Below, piece after piece: positions 3 to 32,136 of a stretch of DNA of 64,000 bases (its first letter is position 1; each line of letters begins with the position of its first letter). Source of the DNA: Muribaculaceae bacterium (GTDB lineage: Bacteria; Bacteroidota; Bacteroidia; Bacteroidales; Muribaculaceae); contig JAFLTX010000001.1 in NCBI GenBank assembly GCA_022509145.1, positions 53,161 through 117,160 on the forward strand, in the 5' to 3' direction. The position numbers and the translations under genes were made by a program. The notes under the pieces are model-generated. The model did not search any database, was not told the DNA's origin, and worked only from the letters and a program-made list of their open reading frames with translations.

Positions 3-1502
3 CCTCATTTCAAGGTGGCCGACACCTACGGGCATACGGCAGTAGTGGAAGGTCTACTGACCCACCGGTATTTCCATGAGCCCGCATTCCGTTTCCGCAT
101 CAACGATATGGACCATCTGATGGTCTACAACACCGACAGCCGCATTAACCCCCGTTGGTATGGAAAGATCTTCGCCTCCGGGCGAGGCGAGGTGGTGGGC
201 GAGCCGGGAAGCGTGACTATAAGTGCCGATGTGGTGACGGACTCCGGGAGCGACTTCACTTTCGTGCTTTCCGACCAGCAGGAGGCCCAGAAATCGCACT
301 TCCTGACCTTCACAGACCGCCGCAAGGAGGAAGAGGAACGCAACCGAGAGGCCGACGAGCGGGAGAAGATACTCAACCGATTCAACTACAACGTTGTCAA
401 TTCTCAGGAGGAGGAATCCGATGTCTTCACTCTTGACCTGCGCGCCTCCGTGACAAACGACATCAAGCTCAACCTCATAATGGACCCGATTGCCGGCGAC
501 AAGATAACCGCCTACGGCGACGGCGCCATGACGATGACATACAGCTCACTCACAGACGAACTGCTCCTATACGGGAAATATACTCTGGAGAAGGGAACGT
601 ATAATTTCTCGTTGCAGGACATCATCCTCAAAGACTTCATCATCAAGCCGGGGAGCTCCATAGCATTCACGGGCGACCCCTACACCGGTATCCTTGACAT
701 CACAGCCGCCTACAGGGTAAACACCAGCCTGACGGAGCTCGACAGCAGTTTCGCCACCGACCGCGAGCTCAACCGCACGAGTGTGCCGGTGGAGGCTTTG
801 CTGATAGTAACCGGAGTGCTCACTTCGCCGAACATCGATTTCGACATAGCTCTCCCAACCGTCACCGAAGAGACCGCGAGAAAGGTGAAAAGCATCATCT
901 CGACAGACGATATGATGAGCCGGCAGGTGCTCTATCTTGTGGCGCTCAACAAGTTCTATCCGCCTGAATATATGGCCACGACCAATTCGGGAGGCGAGTG
1001 GGCGTCGATAGCCTCTTCGACCATCTCTTCTCAGATTCAAAATGCGTTGGGCCAGCTCACAGACAAGGTCACGATAGCGCCGTCGATCCGCAGCGACAAG
1101 GGTGATTTCTCTGATATCGAGTTCGACCTGGCGCTGAGTTCCCAGCTATTTAACAACCGGCTACTGATCAACGGTAACGTGGGATATCGCGATCCTTCAA
1201 ACTCCAACACCACTTTCGTGGGCGATTTCGATCTGGAATATCTTTTGACTAAAAAAGGTAATTGGCGCCTGAAAGCATACAATCATTTTAACGATCAGAA
1301 TTATTACCTGAAGTCGGCGCTCACCACTCAGGGGCTCGGTATCGTATGGCGGAAAGATTTCGGATATCCGGCTTCGGCAGTGCAGACACCGAAGAAAGAG
1401 CCCGTGCGCTCTAAAGAGGAGGAGCCGGCGCCTCAGCCCGAGCAGCCCACCCCAGAACCGGAGCAGCCCACTCCGGTGCCCGAGCAGGCTGACATCGAAT
1501 GA
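3..1502 (+). CDS. Translocation/assembly module TamB C-terminal part (5'-truncated by the window edge)
   Basis: Frame is open to the window edge. The DUF490/TamB-like beta-rich C-terminus includes LLYGKYTLEKGTYNFSLQDIILKDFIIKPGSSIAFTGDPYTGILDITAAYRVNTSL, with a Pro/Glu-rich tail. Confidence 0.85.
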   Translation, partial: PHFKVADTYGHTAVVEGLLTHRYFHEPAFRFRINDMDHLMVYNTDSRINPRWYGKIFASGRGEVVGEPGSVTISADVVTDSGSDFTFVLSDQQEAQKSHFLTFTDRRKEEEERNREADEREKILNRFNYNVVNSQEEESDVFTLDLRASVTNDIKLNLIMDPIAGDKITAYGDGAMTMTYSSLTDELLLYGKYTLEKGTYNFSLQDIILKDFIIKPGSSIAFTGDPYTGILDITAAYRVNTSLTELDSSFATDRELNRTSVPVEALLIVTGVLTSPNIDFDIALPTVTEETARKVKSIISTDDMMSRQVLYLVALNKFYPPEYMATTNSGGEWASIASSTISSQIQNALGQLTDKVTIAPSIRSDKGDFSDIEFDLALSSQLFNNRLLINGNVGYRDPSNSNTTFVGDFDLEYLLTKKGNWRLKAYNHFNDQNYYLKSALTTQGLGIVWRKDFGYPASAVQTPKKEPVRSKEEEPAPQPEQPTPEPEQPTPVPEQADIE

Positions 1503-8909: not shown

Positions 8910-10250
8910 TCAATCGGCTGTCATTTCAGCGTAAAGTTCATACTCTCCTGCACCGGTCACCACGGCTTCCACCATCTCGCCCGGCCGGGCGTTGCAATTG
9001 TGGATGATTACCTCCTGGTCAACTTCCGGAGAGTCGAATTCGGAGCGCCCGATGGCTGTGTCGCCGTCGTTCTCTTCAATCAATACGGTTATCTTCTTCC
9101 CTATCTGGGCAAGATTGTGTGCTTCGGCGATATCCCTCTGGATGCTCATGATCTCATCGAGGCGCGACTGCTTCACGTCTTCCGGGATATCGTCTTGAAG
9201 GTTGTCGGCGGCCAGAGTGCCCTCTTCTTCAGAGTAAGCGAAACCTCCAAGGCGCTCGAACTTCTGCGAACGTACAAACTCCTTGAGTTCTTCGAAGTCT
9301 GCCTCCGTTTCGCCCGGGAACCCGGTCATGACTGTCGTGCGCAGATGGATGCCGGGCACTTCCCTGCGTATGGCGGCAAGCAGCTCGAGTGTTTCCTCAC
9401 GGGTGATCTTGCGGTTCATAGCGCGCAACACCGGTGTGGAGATATGCTGAAGAGCTATATCTATGTAGTTGCAGACGTTGGAGTGCTTTCTGATCACAGG
9501 GAGCAGGTCCATCGGGAAATCGGCAGGGTAGAGGTAATGGAGACGAATCCATCTCACTCCCGGGATTGATGCCAGAGAATCCACCAGCTGTGCCAGTCTT
9601 TGCTCGCCGTAGAGGTCGATACCGTAAGACGAAAGGTCTTGGGCGATGATGTTGAACTCTTTTACGCCTTGGGCAACCAGGCCTTCCACCTCCGCCACAA
9701 TCTCTTCTATGGGGCGGCTTGTGTGGCGCCCCGTGATCAGAGGAATGGCACAGAAAGCGCAGAAACGGTTGCATCCCTCCGACACTTTTATGTATGCACT
9801 CCAGGGAGGAGTGGTGAGTTTCCGAGTGCTTTTCTCCGGATTTCTCGATTCGCGTTTCGAGTCGGGTGTTTGCTCGGTTTCCTGCGTTAGGTCAGGAAGG
9901 GTCTCGATGAAGTTTTTCCAATCGAACTTCCCATACCAGAGGTCCACCTCCTGAAGCTCGTTTTTGAGCTCTTCAAGATATCGCTCCGAGAGGCAACCCA
10001 TCACCACCACCTTCCCGATGTTTTTTCTCTCCTTCTCGGCAATGAGCTGGAGAATCATATTGATGGACTCTTCCTTGGCGTCGGCGATGAAACCGCAGGT
10101 GTTGACCACGGCATATTCACCTTTTACCTCCGAGGGATTGTGCACCACGTCATACCCCTTTCTCTCGAGGCGCGAGAGCAGCGACTCGGAGTCAACGAGA
10201 TTTTTGGAACATCCCATTGTAATGACGTTGACGATGGGGCGCGCTTTCAA
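8910..10250 (-). CDS. rimO: Ribosomal protein S12 methylthiotransferase
   Basis: MGCSKNLVDSE, SEGCNRFCAFCAIP radical-SAM motif, TRAM C-terminus. Confidence 0.95.
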   Translation of the reverse strand: MKARPIVNVITMGCSKNLVDSESLLSRLERKGYDVVHNPSEVKGEYAVVNTCGFIADAKEESINMILQLIAEKERKNIGKVVVMGCLSERYLEELKNELQEVDLWYGKFDWKNFIETLPDLTQETEQTPDSKRESRNPEKSTRKLTTPPWSAYIKVSEGCNRFCAFCAIPLITGRHTSRPIEEIVAEVEGLVAQGVKEFNIIAQDLSSYGIDLYGEQRLAQLVDSLASIPGVRWIRLHYLYPADFPMDLLPVIRKHSNVCNYIDIALQHISTPVLRAMNRKITREETLELLAAIRREVPGIHLRTTVMTGFPGETEADFEELKEFVRSQKFERLGGFAYSEEEGTLAADNLQDDIPEDVKQSRLDEIMSIQRDIAEAHNLAQIGKKITVLIEENDGDTAIGRSEFDSPEVDQEVIIHNCNARPGEMVEAVVTGAGEYELYAEMTAD

Positions 10251-10256
10251 GGAAGA

Positions 10257-11219
10257 TTAAATTTTAAAGAGACTTTTTACGAATTCTTCGGGATTGAACA
10301 CCTGCAGGTCGTCGATACCTTCTCCGATGCCGATATACTTCACCGGAATCTTGAACTGGTCGCTGATTCCGATTACCACGCCGCCTTTCGCCGTGCCGTC
10401 GAGCTTGGTGATCGCCAGGGTGTTGACATCGGTGGCTGCCACGAATTGTTTTGCTTGTTCGTAGGCATTCTGCCCGGTGGAGCCGTCAAGAACGAGAAGC
10501 ACTTCCTGAGGAGCGTCGGGGAGAACTTTCTGCATCACCCGTTTGATTTTGGTGAGCTCGTTCATGAGGTTGATTTTGTTGTGAAGACGGCCTGCGGTGT
10601 CGATGATGACCACATCGGCGTTCTGGGCCTTGGCGCTGCTTACCGTGTCGTAAGCCACTGCCGCGGGATCGCTTCCGGCATTCTGCTTGATCACCTGCAC
10701 TCCTACACGCTCGCCCCACTTCTCGAGCTGGGGAATAGAGGCGGCGCGGAAGGTGTCGGCAGCGCCGAGAATCACCTTGTTGCCGGCTTTGGCAAACTGG
10801 TAGGCGAGCTTCCCGATGGTTGTGGTTTTACCCACACCGTTCACACCAACCACCATTATCACATACGGTTTCTTATCTTCCGGAACGGTGAAATCTTCCT
10901 CTTCGCCTGCCGTTCCCGAGGGTTTGACAAGCATATTGCTGATCTCCTCGCAGAGGATGGCGTTGAGCTCCTGGGTGTTGACGTATTTGTCTCGGTTTAC
11001 TCGTTCTTCCAGGCGCTGGATTATCTTCAGGGTGGTATCCACGCCGACATCGCTGGTGATGAACGCTTCCTCGAGACTGTCGAGCACTTCGTCGTCTACT
11101 TTGCTTTTCCCAGCAACGGCGCGAGTAATTTTTCCCCAAACGCTCTCTTTGGTCTTCTGCAGACCGCTGTCGAGCTTCTCTTTCTTCTCTTTTGAGAAAA
11201 ATTTATTGAAAATACCCAT
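10257..11219 (-). CDS. ftsY: Signal recognition particle receptor
   Basis: GVNGVGKTTTIGKLA, DTFRAASIPQLEKW, DTAGR, TKLDGTAKGG. Confidence 0.96.
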   Translation of the reverse strand: MGIFNKFFSKEKKEKLDSGLQKTKESVWGKITRAVAGKSKVDDEVLDSLEEAFITSDVGVDTTLKIIQRLEERVNRDKYVNTQELNAILCEEISNMLVKPSGTAGEEEDFTVPEDKKPYVIMVVGVNGVGKTTTIGKLAYQFAKAGNKVILGAADTFRAASIPQLEKWGERVGVQVIKQNAGSDPAAVAYDTVSSAKAQNADVVIIDTAGRLHNKINLMNELTKIKRVMQKVLPDAPQEVLLVLDGSTGQNAYEQAKQFVAATDVNTLAITKLDGTAKGGVVIGISDQFKIPVKYIGIGEGIDDLQVFNPEEFVKSLFKI

Positions 11220-14363: not shown

Positions 14364-15716
14364 TTGATTATGGATAAAATTACTAAAGGAGAAGCCCTGA
14401 GATACCATGAAGAGGGGCGTCCGGGAAAGATTGAGATCGTACCTACCAAACCATACTATTCGCAGAAAGACCTTGCGTTGGCTTATTCACCCGGCGTGGC
14501 TTATCCCAGTATTGAGATTGAGAAAGACCCGGAAATGGCTTTCAAATATACCGATCGCGGCAACCTGGTGGGTGTGCTCAGCAACGGAACGGCGGTTCTC
14601 GGGCTGGGCGATATCGGAGCTTTGGCCGGAAAACCTGTGATGGAAGGGAAGGCGCTGCTTTTCAAGATTTTCGCCGGCATCGACGCCTTCGATATTGAGA
14701 TCGACGCCAAGGAGCCGGATAAGTTTGTTGAGGTAGCCAAAGCCATCTCGCCAACATTCGGCGGTATCAATCTTGAAGATATAAAGGCTCCCGAGTGTTT
14801 CGAGATAGAGAGACGGTTGAAGGAGGAGTGCTCGATACCTGTGATGCACGACGACCAACACGGCACAGCCATCATATCGGGGGCTGCTCTCATAAATGCC
14901 TGTGAGATTCAGGGGAAGAAGCTCGAGGATGTGCGGCTTGTAGTCAACGGAGCCGGTGCCGCGGCCATAAGTTGCACCCGGCTTTATATGAAGCTGGGGG
15001 TCAAGAAGGAGAACATCGTGATTTGCGACTCGAAGGGAGTGGTTCACAAACGGCGCTCTGACCTCAACGCCTTCAAGGGAGAGCTGGCCACGGAGAGGGA
15101 AATCGATTCTTTGGCTGAGGCGCTGGTGGGAGCCGACGTTTTCCTGGGATTGAGTGTCGGAAACATTCTGACGGAAGAGATGATAAGGAGCATGGCGCCC
15201 CGGCCGATAATATTCGCGCTTGCCAACCCGGAGCCGGAGATAGCCTACGACAAAGCCATCAAGGCTGTTCCCGACATCATCGTGGCCACCGGAAGAAGCG
15301 ACTATCCGAATCAGGTGAACAACGTGTTGGGATTCCCCTATATTTTCCGCGGCGCGCTGGATACCGAGGCCTCCGAGATAAATGAAGATATGAAGCTGGC
15401 GGCGGTCTATGCCATCGCCTCACTGGCTCATAAAAAGGTGCCGGCGGAGGTGGAGGCGGCATACGACGTCTGCGATTTGAAATTTGGCCGGGAATATATC
15501 TTGCCGAAGCCTTTGGACCCGAGATTGCTGCTTGAGGTGGCTCCTGCGGTTGCGAAAGCGGCCATGGAATCGGGTGTAGCTGGCAAGGAGATCAAAAACT
15601 GGGCCGATTACCGGCGGTTCCTGGAGAAGGTGGTGCCGCATGACGACAATCATGAGGCGAAGATGAAAGCTCTCGCACGCCATGAGATTCTTTGCCGGCG
15701 AGTGAGCAAGAGATAA
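14364..15716 (+). CDS. NAD(P)-dependent malic enzyme, short form without phosphotransacetylase domain
   Basis: [53 protein letters not shown]. Confidence 0.93.
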
Positions 15717-31668: not shown

Positions 31669-31725
31669 TCATTCGCCTATTTTAAAGGGCCGGCCGTTGA
31701 TGGGGATAGAAATGTAAACTTTCAT
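31669..31725 (-). pseudogene. Possible N-terminal stub of a DUF4406-like gene
   Basis: ATG frame MKVYISIPINGRPFKIGE*; resembles the start of DUF4406 (nucleoside deoxyribosyltransferase-like) proteins, then stops. Confidence 0.3.
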
Positions 31726-31746: not shown

Positions 31747-31779
31747 TTGTATTCTACAGGGAAAAAAGTATTATCTTTG
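31747..31779 (+). promoter_or_regulatory. Bacteroidota-type promoter of the ncRNA candidate
   Basis: TTG (31747-31749)-N22-TATCTTTG (31772-31779). Confidence 0.6.
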
Positions 31780-31784
31780 CAACA

Positions 31785-31890
31785 GATTAAGACCTAAACG
31801 CAATAGAGCCATGATGTCGGAACGGTGGCATTTGGTTTAAAGACCGTATGTGGAGGTATTCGAATTACCCGTTGCGTTTTTAGGTCTTAT
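31785..31890 (+). ncRNA. Structured small RNA candidate (6S/6S-Flavo-type is one hypothesis)
   Basis: Consensus promoter just upstream. 15-bp terminal helix AAGACCTAAACGCAA (31789-31803) with TTGCGTTTTTAGGTCTT (31872-31888), with a 2-nt bulge. Internal hairpins include GCCA...TGGC, GGTTTAAAGACC and GGTATTCGAATTACC. T-rich 3' flank. Confidence 0.5.
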
Positions 31891-31920
31891 TATTTTACCC
31901 TTTTATATTTCTTGAGTGTA

Positions 31921-31950
31921 AACTGCTGGGAATTACTTTTCCCAGCAGTT
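31921..31950. terminator. Perfect 12-bp hairpin
   Basis: AACTGCTGGGAA-TTACTT-TTCCCAGCAGTT. Confidence 0.55.
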
Positions 31951-32136
31951 ATATAGTTAACTATATTGCCCTTTTTGCCGTTGACTTTGAGATTATAGTT
32001 GGAATGAACTACAAATTTTTCATTCCGTTCACGATCGAAATATATAAAGGCTTTGCCGTCATGATATATCTTCTTTCCTGCTCTCCTGATAGGAAATTCT
32101 GCGAGATGTTCAGGCGATAATTGATTTTTTACCTGA

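Follow-up and report, generated by a model that had tools for sequence, protein, structure and literature searches.

The window, a stretch of 64,000 nucleotides from a Muribaculaceae genome, encodes a conserved structured RNA which is preceded by a promoter box and shows a tRNA-like cloverleaf without an anticodon loop. There is high confidence that phages carry a real family of structured RNAs to which it belongs. In phages and prophages of Bacteroidales the RNA and a small, oppositely transcribed gene form a well-supported module; the gene product is a predicted RNase which the RNA may inhibit. This tRNA-like family is supported by covariation, has no matching family in Rfam, and is tied to an uncharacterised phage protein family.

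Promoter and structure of the RNA

The RNA and its promoter comprise the following elements (positions in the window).

31747-31779 (+): Bacteroidota-type promoter, read directly from the sequence; -33 TTG (31747-31749), N22, -7 TATCTTTG (31772-31779)
31788-31889 (+): conserved part of the tRNA-like RNA; 105.9 and 89.4 bits with models R2 and R3, for which the window copy was a training sequence
31788-31804 (+): 5' strand of the acceptor-like helix, pairing with 31871-31889; both sides changed in 14 of 17 pairs across the family
31808-31829 (+): D-like arm (GCCAT/GTGGC) whose loop, GATGTCGGAAC, contains an invariant GG, the element GATGT(n)nGGAAC being conserved from the window to phages
31830-31849 (+): middle ('anticodon') hairpin; both sides changed in 6 of 6 pairs, loop length and sequence variable among copies
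31855-31869 (+): T-arm GGTA / TTCGAAT / TACC; both sides changed in 4 of 4 pairs, 100% paired
31871-31889 (+): 3' strand of the acceptor-like helix, on the same basis as the 5' strand

A previous sequence-only reading of this region had proposed a promoter-driven, structured small RNA. The TTG-N22-TATCTTTG promoter which it described is present, and the box is located just upstream of the closing helix, at a distance of 8 nt in the window copy instead of about 6 nt. The helix, given there as 15 bp, consists of 17 pairs with a 2-nt T bulge. All listed complementarities (the GCCA...TGGC, GGTTTAAAGACC and GGTATTCGAATTACC hairpins as well as ACGGT/ACCGT) were found again, and the absence of a plus-strand ORF across the RNA was confirmed. 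Among 29 family copies, 22 carry a TAnnTTTG -7 box within 40 nt upstream, compared with 1.8% of random positions; most of those lacking it come from genus g220 or stand second in a tandem pair.

The folding energy of the segment is -36.2 kcal/mol versus a mean of -22.7 for shuffled sequences (z = -5.0; 0 of 200 shuffles as low). When the window copy is folded alone, its D-like and middle arms pair differently in the minimum-energy structure than in the covarying cloverleaf. In an alignment of 19 sequences the elements run from the acceptor-like helix through the D-like arm, the middle hairpin and the T-arm back to the acceptor-like helix. The T-loop TTCRANN is present in 28 of 29 copies and the motif GG(T)A(A/G)C in all 29; in the D-like loop, main-group copies have GATGTn(n)GGAAC and outliers GGTAGC. 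Since the middle loop varies in both length and sequence, the RNA has no anticodon loop. The resemblance of the TTCGAAT loop and of a 7-bp pairing to a tRNA T-arm and acceptor stem, pointed out in the earlier reading, is borne out by this covarying cloverleaf.

No tRNA was called by ARAGORN in the window. Rfam gave no family at threshold in the window, and a permissive scan of the locus no match on the RNA itself. Some matches, Ms_IGR-8 among them, lie immediately 3' of the RNA; they align to a hairpin in the adjacent protein remnant and were taken as chance. This strong hairpin (31921-31951; AACTGCTGGG...CCCAGCAGTT) could be the terminator of the RNA.

Homologues and covariation

Covariance models identified about 20 relatives of the RNA, distributed over phage contigs and 7 genera of one bacterial family. 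Searching relatives at the DNA level had given two clear homologues, a three-sequence covariance model three further copies among 111 genomes of the genus, and pattern matches in named genomes another two (one labelled Duncaniella, one Porphyromonadaceae). With an eight-sequence model, copies were detected in at least 15 of 397 genomes of the family, distributed over 7 genera; this is a lower bound, as few candidates were scored per genome. Pattern matches in viral and genome collections were mostly due to chance and were weeded out by the covariance search. In the assembly of the window (88% complete) no other copy of the RNA or of its partner gene was found, and the RNA had no match in GenBank phages and plasmids. 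Neither model R2 nor the exact pattern yielded anything in 393 genomes of the order outside the family, which reflects either a narrow spread of the RNA or narrow models.

Compensatory changes were present in 18 of 32 pairs in the eight-sequence alignment, and in 13 pairs in an independent MAFFT alignment that had not been fitted to the model. In the 19-sequence alignment (A7; the window copy and 18 others) they were found in 26 of 32 pairs, with 90% of cells paired; A7 and alignment A5 had been fitted to the model, a procedure biased towards the structure. The covariation score of the 19 sequences was 0.73 versus 0.25 for shuffled alignments, and slid controls did not exceed 0.14. Thus, folding energy, homologues in other genomes and strong covariation indicate that the RNA is more than chance, and the original proposal of a structured, promoter-driven non-coding RNA is supported.

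The window locus as a prophage relic

The RNA of the window is flanked by two gene remnants.

31669-31725 (-): what remains of the start of a DUF4406 gene (MKVYISIPINGRPFKIGE*), oriented divergently to the RNA; assigned by eye
31890-32123 (-): C-terminal fragment (77 aa and stop) of the RNase-like protein starting MAKSxGGVR, tail-to-tail with the RNA, 0 nt between

The protein fragment is 56% identical over 79 aa to the corresponding protein of prophage L192 (tblastn, E = 1.4e-23), and was found again with a profile of which it is itself part (E = 6e-28). The remnant MKVYISIPINGRPFKIGE* was compared with MKLYISIPISGRPL of L192 (Pfam DUF4406), which occupies the same place in that prophage. On account of the protein remnant following the RNA and the truncated DUF4406-like start upstream, the window copy is identified by sequence comparison as a decayed prophage segment between chromosomal genes, in which RNA and promoter are intact and the protein is truncated. 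A similar relic state was observed in genome G515. The earlier designation of the RNA as an orphan holds inasmuch as it is solitary in its source genome, but the family is part of a phage module, and the protein partner persists here as a C-terminal fragment.

A convergent RNA-protein module in Bacteroidales phages

In phages and prophages the RNA lies tail-to-tail with a gene for a small protein starting MAKSxGGVR, which in most cases follows a DUF4417 gene. Such loci were found in the prophage of genome G667 (L192; with terminase, portal, DUF4406 and epimerase genes), in phage contigs L208/L209, L283 and L285/L286, and as island copies in L201 and L027. A search based on the protein only detected the partner gene in 7 of 247 genomes, and a convergent tRNA-like RNA was present at all seven loci. 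Three of these were already known through the RNA and four were new; two of the new RNAs scored E = 4e-8 and 0.005, and two were weak (E = 0.14 and 1.6; 14.0 and 9.6 bits) but still showed the closing helix, the T-arm and the -7 box. In 12 of 12 modules, including a second module of contig L294, the RNA is convergent and downstream; its end falls between -13 and +40 nt relative to the stop codon, and RNA and stop codon usually touch. Every partner gene in the loci examined was accompanied by the RNA. Divergence of protein and RNA was correlated across the 12 modules (Mantel r = 0.57, p = 0.002), a relationship which, as judged from these sequences, shows joint inheritance and not necessarily interaction. 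An intact partner is missing from the neighbourhood of more than half of the RNA copies, and those of genus g220 adjoin unrelated small ORFs.

The main form of the partner matched no curated family, was not assigned to a known defence family by PADLOC, and had no match in GenBank phages. A divergent member, L297, matched Pfam MuF_C with E = 1.8e-4 and 22 bits, below the cut-off of 27.6; the main group did not match. Members of the main group contain a conserved His in a helix (I.H..RD) and a C-terminal Thr (ITA). According to PMC5512222, MuF-C is one of the PBECR domains, predicted RNases with an active site formed, as in colicin D, by a helix His and a C-terminal Thr or Ser; packaging and injection of these proteins are presumed. 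The His/Thr arrangement of the main group, matched by eye, fits this pattern. An AlphaFold model of the partner was poor (pLDDT 59), and Foldseek retrieved no PDB match below E = 0.7. From the sub-threshold profile match of L297 and the residue pattern, we infer a partner with BECR fold and RNase activity of PBECR/MuF-C type, perhaps acting on tRNA like colicin D.

Proteins with the MAKSxGGVR start and other, weakly CdiA_C-like C-terminal domains are also encoded after DUF4417 (L023:8387-8905 and 9435-10013, both minus strand; L027:11137-11673, minus strand). Such varied C-termini suggest interchangeable effector domains, as might be expected of a small polymorphic effector system in phages. 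Contig L294 has a second effector-like gene similar to that of the MuF_C-like L297 protein (499-987, plus strand). The tRNA-like RNA convergent with it (1017-1100, minus strand) gave a sub-threshold Rfam tRNA match.

Comparison with known RNA classes and systems

The RNA shares with tRNA and with the tRNA-like domain of tmRNA the order of arms, the T-loop TTCRANN, the GG of the D-loop and the position of the acceptor beside the T arm. It differs from them in that the 7-nt anticodon loop on a 5-bp stem and the CCA/discriminator end are lacking, and that the acceptor helix is up to 17 bp long instead of 7 bp. Searched against all of Rfam, some outlying members matched tRNA (E = 0.02), tRNA-Sec (0.39), mascRNA (0.03) and the T-arm of tmRNA (0.001), all below the curated cut-offs. 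A degraded tRNA or tmRNA pseudogene, to which these matches and the T-arm and D-loop resemblance could point, is very improbable: the compensatory changes indicate selection on the whole fold and thereby contradict such decay, and none of the copies was called tRNA or tmRNA by ARAGORN.

With 6S-Flavo (RF01685) the RNA has in common a length of about 105 nt, a long terminal helix and occurrence in Bacteroidota, and an assignment to 6S or 6S-Flavo had been put forward on the basis of length and helix. It had to be abandoned, as neither RF01685 nor RF00013 matched at the gathering threshold or at E <= 10. In the whole genome no 6S match was obtained either, with the controls being unmatched too. 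The structure supported by covariation is a three-armed four-way junction, whereas 6S-Flavo is a rod with a large central bubble. Moreover, among 111 genomes of the genus just 6 had a detected copy, with differing neighbours. That the RNA is a 6S or another housekeeping RNA of the family can hence be dismissed almost entirely.

YrlA is a small RNA of bacteria and phages which, like the RNA described here, combines a tRNA-like D/T elbow with a long helix closing its ends. Its tRNA-like module is circularly permuted relative to tRNA (PMC11472068), whereas the present RNA displays the normal tRNA arm order and has no Rfam match. No gene for the Ro60/Rsr (TROVE) partner was found in the 20 host genomes or in 101 genomes of the genus, with a control genome being positive. 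Unpermuted arm order and absence of a TROVE partner speak against a Y RNA.

RNAs of type III toxin-antitoxin systems consist of short repeats located upstream of the toxin gene on the same strand. ToxIN, CptIN and TenpIN resemble the present module in combining an endoribonuclease-like protein with a structured RNA on mobile elements and in the occasional tandem arrangement of RNA copies. They differ in layout, as the RNA described here is a cloverleaf placed convergently downstream, is tandem in some loci only, and accompanies a protein similar to MuF-C/PBECR and not to ToxN. PBECR/MuF-C domains are likewise phage-borne and small and share the His and C-terminal Thr pattern; of the partner proteins, one member gave a weak profile match and most match no Pfam model. 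The passages of PMC5512222 that were searched mention no RNA partner. For 6S RNA, tRNA, YrlA and classical type III systems, at least one tested feature failed in each case. Nothing indicated that the RNA marks a CRISPR, a retron or a group II intron. In the literature searched, which included few subscription journals, such a module was not found described; supplements of surveys such as PMC8040213 might hold the motif unnamed.

Proposed function and alternative explanations

The position of a tRNA mimic beside a probable RNase suggests inhibition or a decoy. We tentatively favour inhibition as a realistic possibility, in which a phage RNase is restrained by the tRNA-mimic RNA. Transcribed opposite to the partner gene, the RNA would bind the enzyme via its tRNA elbow and acceptor features and present no cleavable anticodon loop, so that the enzyme would be kept inactive in the phage's own host, with the RNA serving as a decoy or as an antitoxin akin to those of type III systems. 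Copies standing alone, like that of the window, would be relics, possibly kept as immunity against related phages. This proposal draws on the covariation, the tRNA-like anatomy, the sub-threshold tRNA-type Rfam matches, convergent linkage, co-divergence, the MuF_C match of L297 and the His/Thr pattern; it is weakened by the copies without an intact partner, the unrelated neighbours in g220, the weakness of two of the four independently found RNAs, and the poor structural model and empty fold search of the partner. The wider claim of a new class of phage module, with an opposite-strand non-coding tRNA mimic as dedicated inhibitor of a BECR-fold phage RNase, an undescribed toxin-antitoxin architecture and solitary copies retained by bacteria as immunity, is rather doubtful as a whole. 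If the RNA does inhibit the protein, tRNA mimicry would be used as an antitoxin, and the phage MuF-C/PBECR-type domains, which are without known targets, would gain a partner pointing at tRNA.

Alternatively, the RNA might be a phage counter-defence decoy absorbing host anticodon nucleases or tRNA-sensing defences, with the RNase-like protein being merely another conflict gene of the cargo region. Phage origin and a tRNA-like fold without anticodon loop agree with this explanation, as do solitary or tandem copies that show no linkage to the protein and in part lie in islands containing restriction genes. It is unlikely, since an independent decoy would not be expected to be so closely and convergently linked to a single protein family or to diverge in correlation with it. 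Linkage and co-divergence are accounted for equally if the partner RNase uses the RNA as a substrate or co-factor (as a guide, as a scaffold by which it is packaged into the virion, or as an RNA to be processed), a role to which the presumed packaging and injection of PBECR proteins would lend itself. It is judged quite unlikely, because no sequence feature favours a co-factor over inhibition and the middle loop, the expected cut site of a tRNase, is not conserved. A cis-acting 3' element (a bidirectional terminator or mRNA-stability structure of the protein gene, or an antisense regulator acting on the 3' end of that gene) is suggested by the RNA abutting or overlapping the stop codon and by the reverse strand folding too; the convergent placement is equally compatible with an antisense or terminator role. 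Such an element is nevertheless distinctly improbable in view of the separate promoter box on the opposite strand, the conserved D-like and T-loops, the covariance model scores (121 bits for the plus strand versus 26 for the minus strand) and the persistence of solitary copies without the gene.

Other tRNA-like copies and arrays

In genus g220 the RNA occurs in arrays, in which various tRNA-like or helix-closed RNAs immediately precede small ORFs without family assignment (L200:10232-10318, plus strand; L198:8816-8921, minus strand; L196 and L197). These arrays adjoin genes for restriction enzymes, WYL regulators and helicases. Contig L201 carries four copies of the RNA, two of them in tandem (L201:8741-8944, 11071-11168 and 14705-14795), among toxin-antitoxin and phage-type cassettes in which one leader/promoter sequence is repeated. 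Another tRNA-like element, with a 9-bp closing helix and a GAGGTTCGAGTCCTC T-arm, is located on a related phage contig (L230:4812-4893, plus strand).
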